Shown here piece after piece: positions 7,179-28,838 of a stretch of DNA of 28,838 nt; position 1 is the stretch's first letter; the number at the start of each line of letters is the position of its first letter. The notes below the pieces were generated by a model, which ran no database searches, was not told where the DNA came from, and was given only the letters and a program-made list of their open reading frames with translations. This DNA is from Candidatus Altarchaeales archaeon WOR_SM1_86-2 (GTDB taxonomy: Archaea; Altiarchaeota; Altiarchaeia; IMC4; MCBC01): assembly GCA_001723855.1 (NCBI GenBank), contig MCBC01000152.1:1-28838 (forward strand). The letters run 5' to 3'. A program made the translations under genes and the position numbers.

Positions 7179-7715
7179 TTAAAACATTAACTCCAGTGCA
7201 TTAGCAAACTGTTTGCATAATTCATCAGAGCCGACCAAAAAGATCTCCTTTACCCCCCTGTTTTCGGAGTCAATGAATTTCTTTATCGTATCGACCATAA
7301 ATTTGGCAGCCGCGTCCTTGGGCATTCTCCCGACCCCGGTGCCCATCCCAGGGAAAGCGACCCTTTCCACCCCGTTTTCCGCCGCACACTCCAGAGCTGC
7401 AAGAGTCGCTTTTCTAATCCTTTCCCCTGTACTCGGTTCCACGGCATTTTTCATTGTCGGGGAATGAATGATAAAATCAACCCCTAATTTCCCGGCGGTT
7501 GTCGGGACTGCTTTCCCAATTGGTATCGGTGCCTTTTCAATCGCCTCATCCTCAATCTCTTTACCTCCCGCGCTCATTATAGCCAACGCCACTCCCCCGC
7601 CCATCGTCCCCATGGAGTTGGCGGGATTTACTATCGCGCTTATCCCATCAATACCTAATCTGGTTATGTCCCCGCGTTTTACGGCGATCCTTACCCCCCC
7701 GTACTTCACAAACAT
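7179..7715 (-). CDS. Macro-domain protein (ADP-ribose binding/hydrolysing)
   Basis: The single 178-aa macro domain starts at ATG 7715. Visible signatures are the N-terminal VKRGDITRLGIDGISAIVNPAN, the glycine-rich MGGGVALAI ligand loop, HSPTM, and AFPGMGTGVGRMPKDAA, which lines the ADP-ribose pocket. Family members bind ADP-ribose and related metabolites; several hydrolyse ADP-ribose-1''-phosphate (a product of tRNA splicing) or remove protein/nucleic-acid ADP-ribosylation. It is divergent to the DUF504 gene across 44 bp and is followed by a phosphoribosyltransferase on the same strand. This context favours RNA-end or nucleotide metabolism over a viral or toxin role, as inference. Confidence 0.9.
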   Translation of the reverse strand: MFVKYGGVRIAVKRGDITRLGIDGISAIVNPANSMGTMGGGVALAIMSAGGKEIEDEAIEKAPIPIGKAVPTTAGKLGVDFIIHSPTMKNAVEPSTGERIRKATLAALECAAENGVERVAFPGMGTGVGRMPKDAAAKFMVDTIKKFIDSENRGVKEIFLVGSDELCKQFANALELMF

Positions 7716-10874: not shown

Positions 10875-10886
10875 ATTGTATTAAAA

Positions 10887-11630
10887 ATGGCAAGTAAAGC
10901 GACATATGTTGTGCCGTATCGGAGGAAGAGGCAGAAGAAGACAGATTACCACAAAAGGCTGGATCTATTGAAATCTAGGGGAGGCAGAGTAGTTATAAGG
11001 CCCTCCAATAAGCATATTTGTGTTCAGGTAATCAGGTATAACGCGGACGGCGACCGTGTGATAGCGTCCGCCCACTCGAGCGAATTAAAAGATTTTGGAT
11101 GGAAATTCAACACAGGAAATACTCCTGCAGCATATCTGACCGGTTTGTTGTGCGGCAAGAGAACCCTAAAGGAGGGCGTTAAAGAGGGGGTGCTGGATTT
11201 AGGTTTATACGGGCCGATCAAGGGCTCAAGGATTTACGGGGCATTTAAAGGATTGATTGACTCCGGTTTAGATGTCCCTCACGATGACACCATATTTCCC
11301 GATGAATCACGAGTCAAAGGAGAGCATATCGAAAATTTTATAAAAGTTAAAATAACGAAAAATTTCGACGATGCCAGGGGGGGGATTATAAAGGGAGACG
11401 TAAAGGTGAAAAAAAAGGCGGCTAAGCCCGAGGAAAAACCAAAAAAAGAGGTGAAAGCAGGGGCTGAAAAAGAGGTGAAAGTTAAAGCGAAAGCGAAACC
11501 CAGGACCAAAAAGGAAGTGAAACCTGAAGCCGCACCTAAGACCAAAGCGAAACCCAGGACCAAAAAGGAAGTGAAACCTGAAGCCGCACCTAAGACCAAA
11601 GCGAAACCCAGGACCAAAAAATCCAAATAA
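10887..11630 (+). CDS. rpl18: Ribosomal protein uL18 with long basic repeat tail
   Basis: This large-subunit protein binds 5S rRNA. The start is ATG 10887, giving the typical opening MASKATYVVPYRRKRQKKTDY; the open frame further upstream only translates the end of mvk and the spacer. Conserved segments are YHKRLDLLKSRGGRVVIRPSNK, ASAHSSELKDFGW, NTPAAYLTGLLCG, GSRIYGAFKGLIDSGL and DVPHDD. The core ends near residue 168 and is followed by about 80 residues of Lys/Ala/Pro/Glu that include an exact 54-nt repeat. At 247 aa it is clearly longer than a usual archaeal uL18. The gene normally sits right after eL19; here eL19 is 17 kb away and this copy lies between mvk and an Lrp gene. Confidence 0.93.
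   Translation: MASKATYVVPYRRKRQKKTDYHKRLDLLKSRGGRVVIRPSNKHICVQVIRYNADGDRVIASAHSSELKDFGWKFNTGNTPAAYLTGLLCGKRTLKEGVKEGVLDLGLYGPIKGSRIYGAFKGLIDSGLDVPHDDTIFPDESRVKGEHIENFIKVKITKNFDDARGGIIKGDVKVKKKAAKPEEKPKKEVKAGAEKEVKVKAKAKPRTKKEVKPEAAPKTKAKPRTKKEVKPEAAPKTKAKPRTKKSK
11490..11624 (+). repeat. Exact 54-nt tandem repeat in the uL18 tail (2.5 copies)
   Basis: Units at 11490-11543 and 11544-11597 are identical base for base; a third partial unit runs 11598-11624. Each unit encodes KAKPRTKKEVKPEAAPKT. Identity at silent positions indicates recent duplication or gene conversion. Confidence 0.9.
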
Positions 11631-25134: not shown

Positions 25135-25662
25135 ATGGAATTGAGAGTTGGTATATTGGATGGTGTGGATGCCAGTGTTGAAGATAATCTGGTCAAGGTT
25201 AAGGGGGAAAAAGGGGAATTGAGAAGAAAGTTCCCCCCCCAGGTGGGTATAAGCAAAATTGATAACAGCGTGGTTATATCCTCGGATGGTGAAAAAAGAA
25301 AGCAAAAGGCTTTGATGGGCACAATAAAAGCGCATATAATGAATATGGCGTATGGTGTTAAAAATGGTTATGGTTACAGAATGAGGATAGTCTATTCCCA
25401 TTTCCCGATGAATGTTAAAGTCCAAGGCAATGAAGTTGTTATTGACAACTTCCTGGGGGAAAGGCATCCAAGAAAGGCGAAGATATTGGAGGGAGTGGAT
25501 GTCGATATAAAAGGTCAGGAGGTGAGCATAACGGGGATAGATATAGAAAATGTATCTCAGACAGCTGCGAATATAGAACTTTCAACAAGAATAAAAAGAA
25601 GAGATTCGAGGGTTTTTCAGGATGGCATATACATAACTTATAAGGACAAGGCGAAAGTTTAA
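25135..25662 (+). CDS. rpl6: Ribosomal protein uL6
   Basis: This large-subunit protein sits near the factor-binding centre. The 175-aa sequence carries the two-fold repeated alpha/beta structure with VKVKGEKGELRRKF, HIMNMAYGVKNGYGYRMRIVYSHFP, and the conserved FLGERHPRKAKILEGV. The end has RIKRRDSRVFQDGIY. It begins a plus-strand ribosomal cluster, but the next frame is a lipoprotein rather than eL32. Confidence 0.96.
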   Translation: MELRVGILDGVDASVEDNLVKVKGEKGELRRKFPPQVGISKIDNSVVISSDGEKRKQKALMGTIKAHIMNMAYGVKNGYGYRMRIVYSHFPMNVKVQGNEVVIDNFLGERHPRKAKILEGVDVDIKGQEVSITGIDIENVSQTAANIELSTRIKRRDSRVFQDGIYITYKDKAKV

Positions 25663-25678
25663 TGATTGAAAGAAAATA

Positions 25679-26110
25679 ATGGAATTAAAGACTAAAAAGT
25701 CAGGGCTTTTAATCCTTATGGTGCTGTTGTTAGTTGGAGTTGTGGCATTGAGTGGGTGTATTGGTGGGCAAAAAACCGAGGATTTGCAAACAATAGGTGA
25801 AGCCGTCAAAACAAAACAGGGCATCACCCTGTGCGGTTCACTGTCCAGGGACGATAGATATGCCTGTAAGAATGCCATAACGAATGAGGATGTCTCGCTC
25901 TGCAATGAAATGTCTGCATCTGGAAAAGAGGTTTGTATTGCGGCGGTTGCTGAAGCAAAAGAGGATGTCTCGCTCTGCAATGAAATATCCGCTACATCTA
26001 AGAAAGACTGGTGCATTGCGTTGGTTGCCAGAGCAAAACAGAATGCCACCCTCTGCAAGAAAATAGCGTATGGATATATAAAAGAAGAGTGTATTGAAGG
26101 AGCATCATAA
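25679..26110 (+). CDS. Cys-repeat lipoprotein between ribosomal genes
   Basis: The 143-aa protein has a bacterial-type lipoprotein signal: KTKKSGLLILMVLLLVGVV followed by the lipobox LSGC at residue about 25, so it should be anchored outside the membrane by its cysteine. The mature part is built from about 25-residue units of the form LC..I....K..CI..VA.AK.D; two adjacent units share an exact 26-bp DNA stretch (25886-25911 and 25961-25986). Evenly spaced cysteines suggest disulfide-linked helical hairpins. The gene starts 16 bp after uL6 and ends 37 bp before eL32, so it probably shares their transcript. Function unknown; similar Cys-repeat lipoproteins occur in other archaea. Confidence 0.82.
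   Translation: MELKTKKSGLLILMVLLLVGVVALSGCIGGQKTEDLQTIGEAVKTKQGITLCGSLSRDDRYACKNAITNEDVSLCNEMSASGKEVCIAAVAEAKEDVSLCNEISATSKKDWCIALVARAKQNATLCKKIAYGYIKEECIEGAS
25886..25986 (+). repeat. Tandem repeat unit in the Cys-repeat lipoprotein
   Basis: The 26-bp sequence gaggatgtctcgctctgcaa plus tgaaat occurs exactly at 25886-25911 and 25961-25986, offset by 75 bp, that is 25 codons. A weaker third unit follows (AKQNATLCKKI). Confidence 0.85.
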
Positions 26111-26147: not shown

Positions 26148-27521
26148 ATGGCTGAAAAGGAGATAGGGAAGGAAAAGGCGAAGAGATCGGAAAAGTTGAA
26201 GGAGTCCGCTAAAAAGAGGGTTAAAAAGACCGGGGAGAAATTTAAAAAGAAGATGAAAGCAAAGGGGGGGGCATTGAGGGTTAAAAAAGCAGATGAGGAG
26301 GGGGAGGGGGAGGCAAAAAAGGTCGTTGAGAAGAGAGTTAAGAAAGTTGTAAAGCCTAAAAAAGAGGAAAAGGCTGAGAAGGCGGAACCAAAGAAAAAGG
26401 TTGGGGAGGTAAAGCCGAAAAAAGAGGAAAAGGCGGTTAAACCGGAGGAAGTTGAAGAAGAATTGGCAGAAGAGGGGTTTGGGGAGGAGGAGATTGAAGA
26501 AAAGGTAGAGGAGGAAAAGCCGGTTGTCAGGGGAAAAAAAATTGAAAAAATAGAGCACTTCGGCAAAAAAGAATTAACCGGTGAGGAAAGGAGATTGTTC
26601 AGGGAAGCGTACCGTCAAAAAAAGAAAAAGCCAAGATTTGCGAGAGATTCGATGAGCAAGGCAAAAAGGCTTAATGACGTATGGAGGCGCCCGAGAGGAA
26701 TTGACAGCAAGCAGCACTTAGAGAAAAGAGGGAAACTCAAGGGGCCCAAGATTGGATATAAGAAGCCCCTGCCTGTTTCTGGAAAACACCCGTCCGGGTA
26801 TCATGGAATTTTAGTGCACAATGCCCGTGAATTAGAAGGGTTGAACCCAAAAGATGAGGCTGCAGTGATCTCTAAATCGGTTGGAAGAAAAAAGAGAAAT
26901 GATCTCATAAAGATAGCAAATGAACACGGGATCGTTATACTGAACCCGAGAAAGGGGGAATTTGGGGAGAAGGAAGTTAGGGTTGAAAAAAAAGTATTGG
27001 CGAACAAGAAAATTTTAATGGTAATCGCTCCAAAAGACTTCAGAGACGAGGAATTCTTTGACCCAAAGAAAATATTTGAAGATAACGGTGCAGATGTTAC
27101 TGCAGCAAGTTTATCAACCCAACCCGCTGAAGGGATGATGGGTGCAAAGGTAAAACCCGATATTGCAGTAGATGATGTCGATACAAAGGACTATGATGCA
27201 GTTGTCCTTGTCGGGGGGACGGGAGCGCAGAAGCATTTATGGGATAACGAGAAAGTCCGGGACATCTGTAAAACGGCATATGACGCTAAAAAGATCGTGG
27301 GGGCAATCTGTCTTGCTCCGGTAGTGCTTGCAAGGGCAGGGCTCTTAAAGAAAAAAGACGCGACGGTTTTTGACTCAAAGGATGCAATAAAGGAACTTAA
27401 AGCAAATAATGCCAATTACATCAAAAAAAGAACCGTGATTTCAGAAAATATTATCACAGGTAACGGTCCTGCTGCAGCAAAGGATTTTGGAGCAAAAATC
27501 GTAAAAATGCTCGGTAAATAA
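26148..27521 (+). CDS. rpl32e: Fusion of ribosomal protein eL32 and a DJ-1/PfpI domain
   Basis: A single 457-codon frame contains three parts. Residues 1-140 are a Lys/Glu low-complexity arm. Residues about 143-268 are a complete eL32 domain: RFARDSMSKAKRLNDVWRRP, GIDSKQHLEKRGK, GYKKPLPVSGKHPSGYHGILVHN, LEGLNPKDEAAVISKSVGRKKR. Residues about 286-457 are a DJ-1/PfpI domain: ILMVIAPKDFRDEEFFDP with the partner Glu302, VVLVGGTGA, the nucleophile elbow IVGAICLAPVVLARAGLL with Cys388, and ENIITGNGPAAAKDFG. No stop or start-like break lies at the junction (26952-27003). agagg at 26139-26143 is a Shine-Dalgarno 4 bp from the ATG, and tttatatttaatta near 26114 could be a promoter. eL32 is normally a lone ribosomal protein; the DJ-1 family includes proteases, chaperones and deglycases. 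Confidence 0.88.
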   Translation: MAEKEIGKEKAKRSEKLKESAKKRVKKTGEKFKKKMKAKGGALRVKKADEEGEGEAKKVVEKRVKKVVKPKKEEKAEKAEPKKKVGEVKPKKEEKAVKPEEVEEELAEEGFGEEEIEEKVEEEKPVVRGKKIEKIEHFGKKELTGEERRLFREAYRQKKKKPRFARDSMSKAKRLNDVWRRPRGIDSKQHLEKRGKLKGPKIGYKKPLPVSGKHPSGYHGILVHNARELEGLNPKDEAAVISKSVGRKKRNDLIKIANEHGIVILNPRKGEFGEKEVRVEKKVLANKKILMVIAPKDFRDEEFFDPKKIFEDNGADVTAASLSTQPAEGMMGAKVKPDIAVDDVDTKDYDAVVLVGGTGAQKHLWDNEKVRDICKTAYDAKKIVGAICLAPVVLARAGLLKKKDATVFDSKDAIKELKANNANYIKKRTVISENIITGNGPAAAKDFGAKIVKMLGK

Positions 27522-27568: not shown

Positions 27569-28009
27569 ATGAATGTAAAATCAAAAAAACAACTTGCATC
27601 CAGAGTATTGGGCGTTGGAATTCATCGTGTGAGGATAGATTCGGAAAGCCTGGATGACGTATCAAAAGCATTAACTAGGGATGACATTCGCCATCATATC
27701 TCAACGGGTGCCATTTTCGTTGAGCCTGAAAAGCCAAAGAGCAGAGGCAGGCTGAAGGAGGCGAAAAAGCAGAAGAAAAAAGGCAGAAGAAGGGGGCATG
27801 GAAGCAGAAAGGGGACAAAGAATGCTCGTGACCCGAAGAAGAAAAGATGGATGCGGAAAATAAGGGCTATTAGAGGCGAACTTAAACAGATGAGGGAAGA
27901 TGAGGAAGTGGACGCCCACACCTACAGGACACTGTACAGGCAGGCTAAAGGCAACCTGTTTCACAGCAGGCGGCATTTGAGGGAGCATATAGAAAGAGCA
28001 AAGACCTGA
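27569..28009 (+). CDS. rpl19e: Ribosomal protein eL19
   Basis: The 146-aa protein has the typical N-terminus (KSKKQLASRVLGVGIHRVRID), the SRGRLKEAKKQKKKGRRRGHGSRKGTKNAR basic segment, WMRKIRAIRGELK, and YRTLYRQAKGNLFHSRRHLREHI. It follows the eL32 fusion after 47 bp. In most archaea the next genes would be uL18, uS5, uL30 and uL15; here the cluster stops and a TraB gene faces it 4 bp after the stop. Confidence 0.96.
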   Translation: MNVKSKKQLASRVLGVGIHRVRIDSESLDDVSKALTRDDIRHHISTGAIFVEPEKPKSRGRLKEAKKQKKKGRRRGHGSRKGTKNARDPKKKRWMRKIRAIRGELKQMREDEEVDAHTYRTLYRQAKGNLFHSRRHLREHIERAKT

Positions 28010-28013
28010 TTCT

Positions 28014-28838
28014 CTAAGACCCCCACAAACCTATTAAAATCGGGAATATAACCAATGTGCCTATGGAGCTGCCTGCATTGGCAAAAACAACAACCAGAAA
28101 TATCCTGGTTACCCTGTTTCCCCAGAGGTCTCTTATTCTTTTTAGATTATTTAAATTTTCAAAATCCAAAACCAATGGTTTTCGTATCAACGCTTCAACA
28201 AATCCTGCAACCAATCCTGCTGCCAGCAGGGGATTCAATGAAGTAAATGGTGCCGCAAGCACCGCAGACATTATCGCTACGGGGTGCGCCCGGGCCAAAG
28301 CCGCACCGATTCCTGCGGGGATGCCGTTTGCTATAAACCAGATCACGATGTATTTCAGTAAAAGGTCCCCCCCGCCGGTGAAATACGCCCACGCAAACAC
28401 GCAAATCACAATTATCGGAACTGCCCACTTTATATAAGACAATATATTTCTTCTTTTTGGCATTTCTTCTAAATTCCTGGTTTCCTTTTTTATGTCCACT
28501 ATACGCCTGCTCATGTTCTTTTCAATTTCTTTTTTTACTCCTGTGACATGGCCTGCTCCCAGGACCGCAACCAGCTTTTTATTGTTTTCATTCCCGAGCG
28601 CGTCTATAATCTTATGCGCTATATACGCATCCCGCTCATCGATTAATGATCTTTTCATTGAAGGCGCCAATCTGGATAATTCTTTTAGCATCTCGGATAC
28701 CGCATCCTTATCTTTTAAACGTTCAATTTGCTTATCCAGGGATTCCTCAACCTCATCGCTTAAAAAAATCCCGAAAATTATATCGTATAGGGACAAAAAA
28801 CCCAGCTTAAATTTCTCCAATATGCCCATGGAACTCCA
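28014..28838 (-). CDS. TraB-family membrane protein, cut by window edge
   Basis: The frame stays open through the right end of the window (a Trp-Ser-Ser stretch precedes the first ATG at 28829), so the N-terminus is missing here. Features of the TraB/PrgY family in the remaining part are LVDER-like SLIDERDAYIAHKIIDAL, LVAVLGAGHVTGVKKEIEK, and the C-terminal membrane region with IANGIPAGIGAALARAHPVAIMSAVLAAPFTSLNPLLAAG. Four hydrophobic segments can be drawn in the last 140 residues. Family members are linked to pheromone shutdown in enterococci; the archaeal role is unknown. Confidence 0.88.
   Translation of the reverse strand, partial: WSSMGILEKFKLGFLSLYDIIFGIFLSDEVEESLDKQIERLKDKDAVSEMLKELSRLAPSMKRSLIDERDAYIAHKIIDALGNENNKKLVAVLGAGHVTGVKKEIEKNMSRRIVDIKKETRNLEEMPKRRNILSYIKWAVPIIVICVFAWAYFTGGGDLLLKYIVIWFIANGIPAGIGAALARAHPVAIMSAVLAAPFTSLNPLLAAGLVAGFVEALIRKPLVLDFENLNNLKRIRDLWGNRVTRIFLVVVFANAGSSIGTLVIFPILIGLWGS

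Follow-up and report, generated by a model that had tools for sequence, protein, structure and literature searches.

The stretch of DNA analyzed here (28,838 nt; hereafter the window) carries on its forward strand one uninterrupted reading frame that encodes a Lys/Glu-rich N-terminal arm, the whole ribosomal protein eL32 and a complete DJ-1/PfpI domain. A first-pass annotation, made from the letters alone, had proposed this arrangement, and its coordinates, start and stop were recovered as claimed by ORF analysis and Pfam. The features of the locus are as follows.

25135..25662, + strand: uL6, the usual upstream neighbor; a small ORF (25679-26110) lies between uL6 and the fusion
26148..27521, + strand: eL32-DJ-1/PfpI fusion gene, ATG to stop, 457 aa, without internal stop
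26148..26534, + strand: Lys/Glu-rich N-terminal arm; arm-to-arm identity with 8 fused sequences 24-38% (at least 75 aligned residues)
26574..26954, + strand: complete eL32 domain, residues 143-269 (Pfam, NCBIfam)
26961..27011, + strand: linker, residues 272-288, 17 aa, beginning past the normal eL32 end LNPRKGE
27006..27506, + strand: complete DJ-1/PfpI domain, residues 287-453 (Pfam, AlphaFold2, Foldseek)
27018..27020, + strand: internal ATG, Met291, where the publicly annotated protein P0085 (167 aa) starts
27051..27053, + strand: Glu302 codon, equivalent to Glu15 of PH1704 and Glu18 of DJ-1
27309..27311, + strand: Cys388 codon, nucleophile elbow, equivalent to Cys100 of PH1704 and Cys106 of DJ-1
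27569..28009, + strand: eL19, the usual downstream neighbor of eL32, 47 nt past the fusion stop

Both curated models identify a full-length eL32 in the chain: Ribosomal_L32e of Pfam matches residues 161-266 (E 1.3e-28; 99.8 bits against a cut-off of 25; profile positions 1-108 of 108), and the NCBIfam model PRK08562 clears its cut-off (130 versus 120 bits). The DJ-1_PfpI profile matches residues 287-453 (Pfam, E 1.8e-42, positions 1-164 of 165), and the predicted structure and Foldseek likewise identify a full-length DJ-1/PfpI fold. The Lys/Glu arm is not specific to the fusion, because unfused eL32 proteins carry arms of a similar kind.

When residues 280-457 were modeled alone with AlphaFold2, the mean pLDDT was 97.9. 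In the full model the DJ-1 domain has a pLDDT of about 98, residues 273-278 of the linker fall below 50, and the eL32 part shows block means of 83-96 at residues 211-270 and 43-58 at residues 161-210; the low values of the latter block are perhaps to be expected in a region whose folding takes place on rRNA. The Foldseek comparison recommended by the first-pass annotation returned the DJ-1/PfpI fold, with a TMt of 0.93 to 4hcj and 1g2i and about 0.82 to human DJ-1 for the full predicted model. By sequence, 4hcj is the closest solved structure, followed by Drosophila DJ-1beta and PH1704.

Scans over the gene gave one promoter-like signal (2.2 expected from shuffled sequences; the models describe bacterial promoters only) and two terminator-like signals (1.3 expected, not clearly above shuffles). 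Five short families of direct repeats were also found, three of which lie wholly within the arm, as well as a single imperfect inverted pair. As side observations on the surroundings, the small ORF between uL6 and the fusion looks lipoprotein-like (VVALSGCIGG, then repeats around DVSLCNE) and has no Pfam match at E <= 1e-5; uL18 lies away from the cluster (10884-11630) and has a Lys/Ala/Pro-rich C-tail of repeats (KAKPRTKKEVKPEAAPKT); at 28014-28829 on the minus strand, an ORF that looks like a membrane protein contains the C-terminal portion of a TraB/PrgY/gumN domain; and a stand-alone macro domain protein is encoded at 7179-7715, also on the minus strand.

Distribution, conservation and origin of the fusion

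To place the window frame among its relatives, about 5.8 billion proteins were searched with residues 130-457 as the query (E <= 0.001); 49 matches were obtained, six of which contain both Pfam domains (P0004-P0009). In a second search, with an alignment of trimmed fusions as the query (E <= 1e-10), seven proteins with both domains were present among the best 120 of 1248 matches, P0052 being the new one. The protein-set search finds relatives that share exact words, and fusions whose gene call starts inside the frame would escape it. P0005 is annotated as 50S ribosomal protein L32e of Candidatus Altiarchaeales archaeon HGW-Altiarchaeales-3. In a sample of 29 genomes of one phylum, apparently Altiarchaeota, two carry the fusion (G031, 58% identical to the window, and G010, 49%), eL32 ends at its normal place in 26, and one (G012) gave no match to the query. 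The search for the same fusion in related genomes, which the first-pass annotation had called for, thus yielded seven proteins and two genomes; including the window there are ten fused sequences, or about nine distinct ones, since P0004 and the G031 sequence are near-identical. The G010 fusion sits on a contig of 1,390,915 bp and is therefore not the product of an assembly break.

Outside the phylum, no match over both domains was found at E <= 1e-56 in 148, 151 and 147 genomes (the phyla of G004, G003 and G002, respectively), the single match among the 148 being a free DJ-1; with the same query the control fusions of G010 and G031 scored 4.9e-93 and 1.3e-125, and a distant fusion could fall below 1e-56. 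Among plasmids, 161 records matched, none of them covering 80% of the query, and the five listed match the DJ-1 part only. A scan of genome contigs with the single protein gave 26 loci, in all of which the matches lie within residues 255-457. Some uncultured archaea, apparently Altiarchaeota, thus encode eL32 and a DJ-1 domain as a single chain, and the frame in the window is a genuine eL32-DJ-1 fusion, far beyond chance, because nine further sequences have both domains in the same order with linkers in frame.

The fused gene occupies the usual place of eL32 in the operon. In G010 it lies between uL6 and eL19, as it does in the window apart from the one small ORF before it; in G031 it follows uL6, and eL19 is absent from that locus. 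Ribosomal-protein genes surround the fusion in all three loci. The first-pass annotation had pointed to relatives with two separate genes at this locus as a finding that would speak against it; in the 26 genomes with unfused eL32, the eL32 loci, which span 2.8 to 5.8 kb, contain no DJ-1 frame beside eL32 that might represent a precursor of the fusion. The gap between eL32 and eL19 in unfused loci ranges from -4 to 221 nt.

Across the fused sequences, identity to the window is 55-67% for eL32 and 52-61% for DJ-1, while that of the linker is only 0-42%. The linkers measure 8, 9, 14, 17 or 21 aa, all in frame, and the alignment reveals no linker motif common to the ten sequences. In the close trio P0006-P0008, the DJ-1 halves are 89-97% identical and the eL32 halves 94-95%. 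The DJ-1 half therefore appears to be constrained nearly as strongly as the ribosomal protein, since its identity nears that of eL32 while arm and linker vary; had the DJ-1 half been no more than read-through sequence, drift would presumably have introduced stops.

In a DJ-1 tree of 119 rows, a single fork of 11 rows (SH-aLRT 87) contains all ten fused domains together with one free row, the membrane-anchored-looking P0144. In a smaller tree of 65 rows, seven of the eight fused domains form a clade (98/93) with P0009 nearby, and all eight as one clade are not rejected by the AU test (p 0.455). At the key forks, neither the eL32 tree, which as drawn needs four changes, nor a concatenated tree of six ribosomal proteins (986 columns; rows missing genes kept with gaps, G031 filled to 44%) resolves the fused genomes into a single group. 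One clade of the three fused genomes is not rejected by the AU test (p 0.625; the tree constrained to this clade 4.4 log units better). By path in the eL32 tree, the row nearest to the window is the unfused G009, although by identity the fused G031 comes first; G009 may therefore have lost the fusion, or the fusion may have been gained more than once. G010 and G031 each have one further DJ-1, of a distant subfamily also present in G005-G008, and a free twin of the fused subfamily was found in neither. Since the DJ-1 domains of the fusions come close to forming a single clade, one old fusion event is likely.

As for the composition of these trees, loci fetched twice were dropped (L031, L032 and L033 for eL32; L031, L032, L034 and L002 for DJ-1), and neither the eL32 tree nor the 65-row DJ-1 tree contains P0004, near-identical to G031, or P0052. 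To the 119-row tree, P0004, P0052 and P0087-P0151 were added from the second search; the multi-domain proteins P0051 and P0053-P0084 were left out, as were P0152-P0162. Also excluded were 12 DJ-1 rows that were partial, distant or on long branches (L024, L025 and L076-L085) and one row removed by the length filter.

Active-site residues of the DJ-1/PfpI domain

The two hallmark residues named by the first-pass annotation, Glu302 and Cys388, are where it had placed them; they align with Glu15 and Cys100 of PH1704 (1g2i) and are kept, together with Gly356 and Gly357, in all ten fused domains. The nucleophilic Cys elbow and conserved Glu that define the DJ-1/PfpI superfamily are thus found in 10/10 fused rows, and Pro441 is kept in the nine ungapped ones. 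Among the 109 free relatives, Glu occurs at the Glu302 position in 108/108 ungapped rows and Cys at the Cys388 position in 109/109.

The protease triad of PfpI is Cys100-His101-Glu74', and some DJ-1/PfpI relatives are described as proteases (both from parts of PMC4156298). The His101 position of PH1704 is Leu389 in all ten fused domains, which makes a PfpI-type protease unlikely. The position of PH1704 Glu74 corresponds to residue 362 or 361 depending on the alignment, with Glu in 9/10 or 1/10 fused rows accordingly, and the window has Lys362 and Gln361 there. Tyr120 of PH1704 is replaced by Phe408.

For the hydrolysis of cPGA by human DJ-1, the relevant sections of PMC12135873 list as essential Glu15, Glu18, Arg28 of the partner subunit, Gly74, Gly75, Cys106, the Ala107 backbone and Pro158, and report that changing Glu15 to Ala abolishes the activity whereas changing His126 to Ala has no effect, YajL having Phe there. 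Glu18, Gly74, Gly75, Cys106 and Pro158 of this set have their equivalents in the window (E302, G356, G357, C388 and P441). The Glu15 position, however, is Arg299 in 10/10 fused domains, and the position of Arg28 (312) holds Asp, Asn, Ser or Ala, so that a hydrolase of the human DJ-1 type is uncertain. The fused domains also have Leu, not Pro, at DJ-1 position 107, and Phe408 at the His126 position.

The Arg of an Arg-Asp-Glu-Glu motif is shared by 108/108 ungapped free relatives, so the domain belongs to a separate subfamily that likely has a substrate of its own, as Arg299 in place of Glu15 also suggests. Residue 363 is His in 9/10 fused domains and Tyr in 78 of the 97 ungapped free rows. Taken together, the retention of Cys388, Glu302, the Gly356-Gly357 oxyanion hole and Pro441 suggests a working Cys-dependent hydrolase or hydratase. 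The interpretation in the first-pass annotation is partly supported: the Cys/Glu hallmarks stand, but of the activities that it listed for DJ-1 relatives a protease of the PfpI type is unlikely, and a human DJ-1-type hydrolase is uncertain.

Gene calls and alternatives to a single tethered chain

The fusion is hidden in public annotation, because the gene call for the window contig (P0085) starts at the internal ATG; P0086, on the 1,390,915-bp contig, also begins at the internal ATG, and by eye its sequence is that of the G010 fusion end. A ribosomal-protein fusion can thus be hidden by a gene call that starts internally, and eL32 may look absent from genomes annotated in this way. Both calls make the DJ-1 part a protein of its own, and Met is found at position 291 in all ten fused sequences, as would be expected if DJ-1 were also, or only, made from this start. 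However, Met291 lies inside strand 1 of the model (residues 288-292), so that initiation there would drop three of the five strand residues. The same Met is invariant in a 36-row alignment (A4) and, apart from the window and P0086, stands 6 to 55 residues into the chain in the other 34 rows, which argues that it is structural. Moreover, no Shine-Dalgarno-like word was found in the 16 bases upstream of this ATG in the three DNAs scanned, and the G031 linker has no ATG, GTG or TTG. On these grounds the two public calls are read as start-site errors, and internal initiation at Met291 was judged unlikely; we give it very little weight.

Ubiquitin-eL40 and ubiquitin-eS31 are ribosomal-protein fusions in eukaryotes, and in the same style the eL32-DJ-1 chain could be made whole and then cut at the linker, in which case the fusion would fix an equal supply of both halves and DJ-1 would be free in the cell. 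We regard this as unlikely, though deserving of attention: the linker is a low-confidence region of the model and some DJ-1/PfpI relatives are described as proteases in parts of PMC4156298, but the linkers have no motif common to all ten sequences and vary from 8 to 21 aa with 0 to 42% identity, and self-cleavage by the PfpI triad is itself unlikely because the triad His is Leu in the fused domains. It is also conceivable, although in our view improbable, that the chain stays fused and the tether serves no purpose, being a cheap accident of the operon with an enzyme that works at the ribosome surface just as it would elsewhere. The fusion lies among ribosomal-protein genes in three loci, and its presence in only 2/29 genomes of the phylum indicates that the group can dispense with it; on the other hand, it has persisted while the sequences diverged deeply (eL32 identity as low as 55%), both halves are constrained, and G010 and G031 show no free copy of the same subfamily beside their one distant DJ-1 each. 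An assembly error or a decaying read-through has a negligible probability, given that the ten sequences come from several sources, that one of them lies on a 1.39-Mb contig, that the active site is intact and that the linkers stay in frame. The conserved fused relatives rule out assembly artefact, chance and read-through decay, and the argument of the first-pass annotation against the last of these has gained nine further fused sequences with the residues kept.

Proposed role and comparison with known systems

The reading that we favor, and consider reasonably probable, is that a DJ-1 domain was joined in frame to eL32 in one Altiarchaeota lineage, so that the chain sits on the 50S subunit with a tethered Cys/Glu hydrolase-like domain. 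We infer this single chain on the ribosome, together with its activity, substrate and role, as follows. Within the ribosomal-protein operon, and most likely on one occasion, a DJ-1/PfpI gene would have been joined to the 3' end of eL32. The eL32 half would be built into the large subunit as usual and anchor the chain, and the DJ-1 half would hang from the normal eL32 C-terminus on a flexible linker of 8-21 aa, displayed in the region of the 50S that binds eL32, close to helix H25; in a crenarchaeal 50S, eL32 lies near H25 with aL7 (described in part of PMC10516650). With a single eL32 gene, each ribosome would hold one copy of the domain: the expectation of the first-pass annotation that every ribosome would display it is supported for G010 and G031, each with exactly one eL32 gene by Pfam search (genome completeness not given). 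A small-molecule or adduct-clearing activity would thereby be placed at the ribosome in a fixed 1:1 dose. By analogy with DJ-1, as treated in part of PMC10915168, the most likely role would be the clearance of adducts or reactive metabolites at the ribosome. If this is true, the ribosome itself is a place where a DJ-1-type activity is of use, and the fusion offers a natural way to test what it is that DJ-1 proteins protect. Since DJ-1/PfpI proteins function as dimers or larger rings, it is conceivable that the DJ-1-fold domains attached to every ribosome also pair two ribosomes, as a chemically sensitive device for pairing or protection; we consider this speculative and quite doubtful.

In line with the first-pass annotation, which knew of none, no described eL32-DJ-1 protein came to light in the open literature searched (5.39 million papers). 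No paper there contains both 'L32e' and 'DJ-1' (most subscription papers lie outside it), and none on archaeal ribosomal-protein fusions, PfpI or Altiarchaeota has such a fusion as its subject by title or start of abstract; those on fusion to ribosomal proteins in archaea deal with ubiquitin. Neither 'ribosomal protein' nor 'DJ-1' nor 'PfpI' occurs in the main text of the comparative paper on Altiarchaeales that covers IMC4 (PMC4975002).

Among solved structures, the nearest in both sequence and fold is 4hcj, a ThiJ/PfpI domain protein of Brachyspira murdochii. It has Gly at the position of the Cys nucleophile, whereas the fused domains keep Cys; relatives without the nucleophile thus exist. 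The PH1704/PfpI protease (1g2i) has the fold and the Glu15 and Cys100 positions in common with the fused domain, but its His101 and Tyr120 correspond to Leu389 and Phe408. Human DJ-1 and YajL share the positions of Glu18, Gly74, Gly75, Cys106 and Pro158, and YajL, like the fused domain, has Phe at the His126 position (from the sections of PMC12135873 noted above); human DJ-1 differs in Glu15 (Arg299 in the fused domain), in Arg28, which is not kept, and in its weaker fold match. The same subfamily includes free DJ-1/PfpI proteins with the pattern RDEE ... GG ... C(L/I) ... GP and no eL32 attached. By eye, the close free relatives P0087, P0094 and P0144 look lipoprotein-like or membrane-anchored, and the subfamily may therefore be prone to tethering. 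In addition, some proteins carry several DJ-1/PfpI domains in tandem (by eye, four copies in P0002 and P0003 and two in P0010; P0051 also has several), and the N-termini of P0002, P0003 and P0010 resemble export signals by eye.

Halobacterial eL32 proteins (P0045-P0047) also have an extra folded Pfam domain, which is not an enzyme and which, going by the accessions, we take to be N-terminal and of the helix-hairpin-helix type. RPS1 is a protein of the small subunit, and aconitase-bL21 is a fungal mitochondrial protein. According to parts of PMC4746011, IspH-RPS1 fusions occur in 447 species of anaerobic bacteria, with a ribosome role that is there proposed and not shown, and aconitase-bL21 is named among enzyme-ribosomal protein fusions. 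IspH-RPS1 resembles eL32-DJ-1 in joining a metabolic enzyme domain to a ribosomal protein in multiple species; it differs in its enzyme, in its ribosomal protein, in being bacterial and in its spread (447 species versus about nine distinct sequences). Aconitase-bL21, like eL32-DJ-1, joins an enzyme to a large-subunit ribosomal protein, although the partners differ. It is rare for an enzyme domain to be fused to a ribosomal protein; as a kind such fusions were already known from IspH-RPS1 and aconitase-bL21, and the eL32-DJ-1 combination, conserved in an archaeal lineage, joins a core protein of the large subunit to a domain whose catalytic residues are kept.
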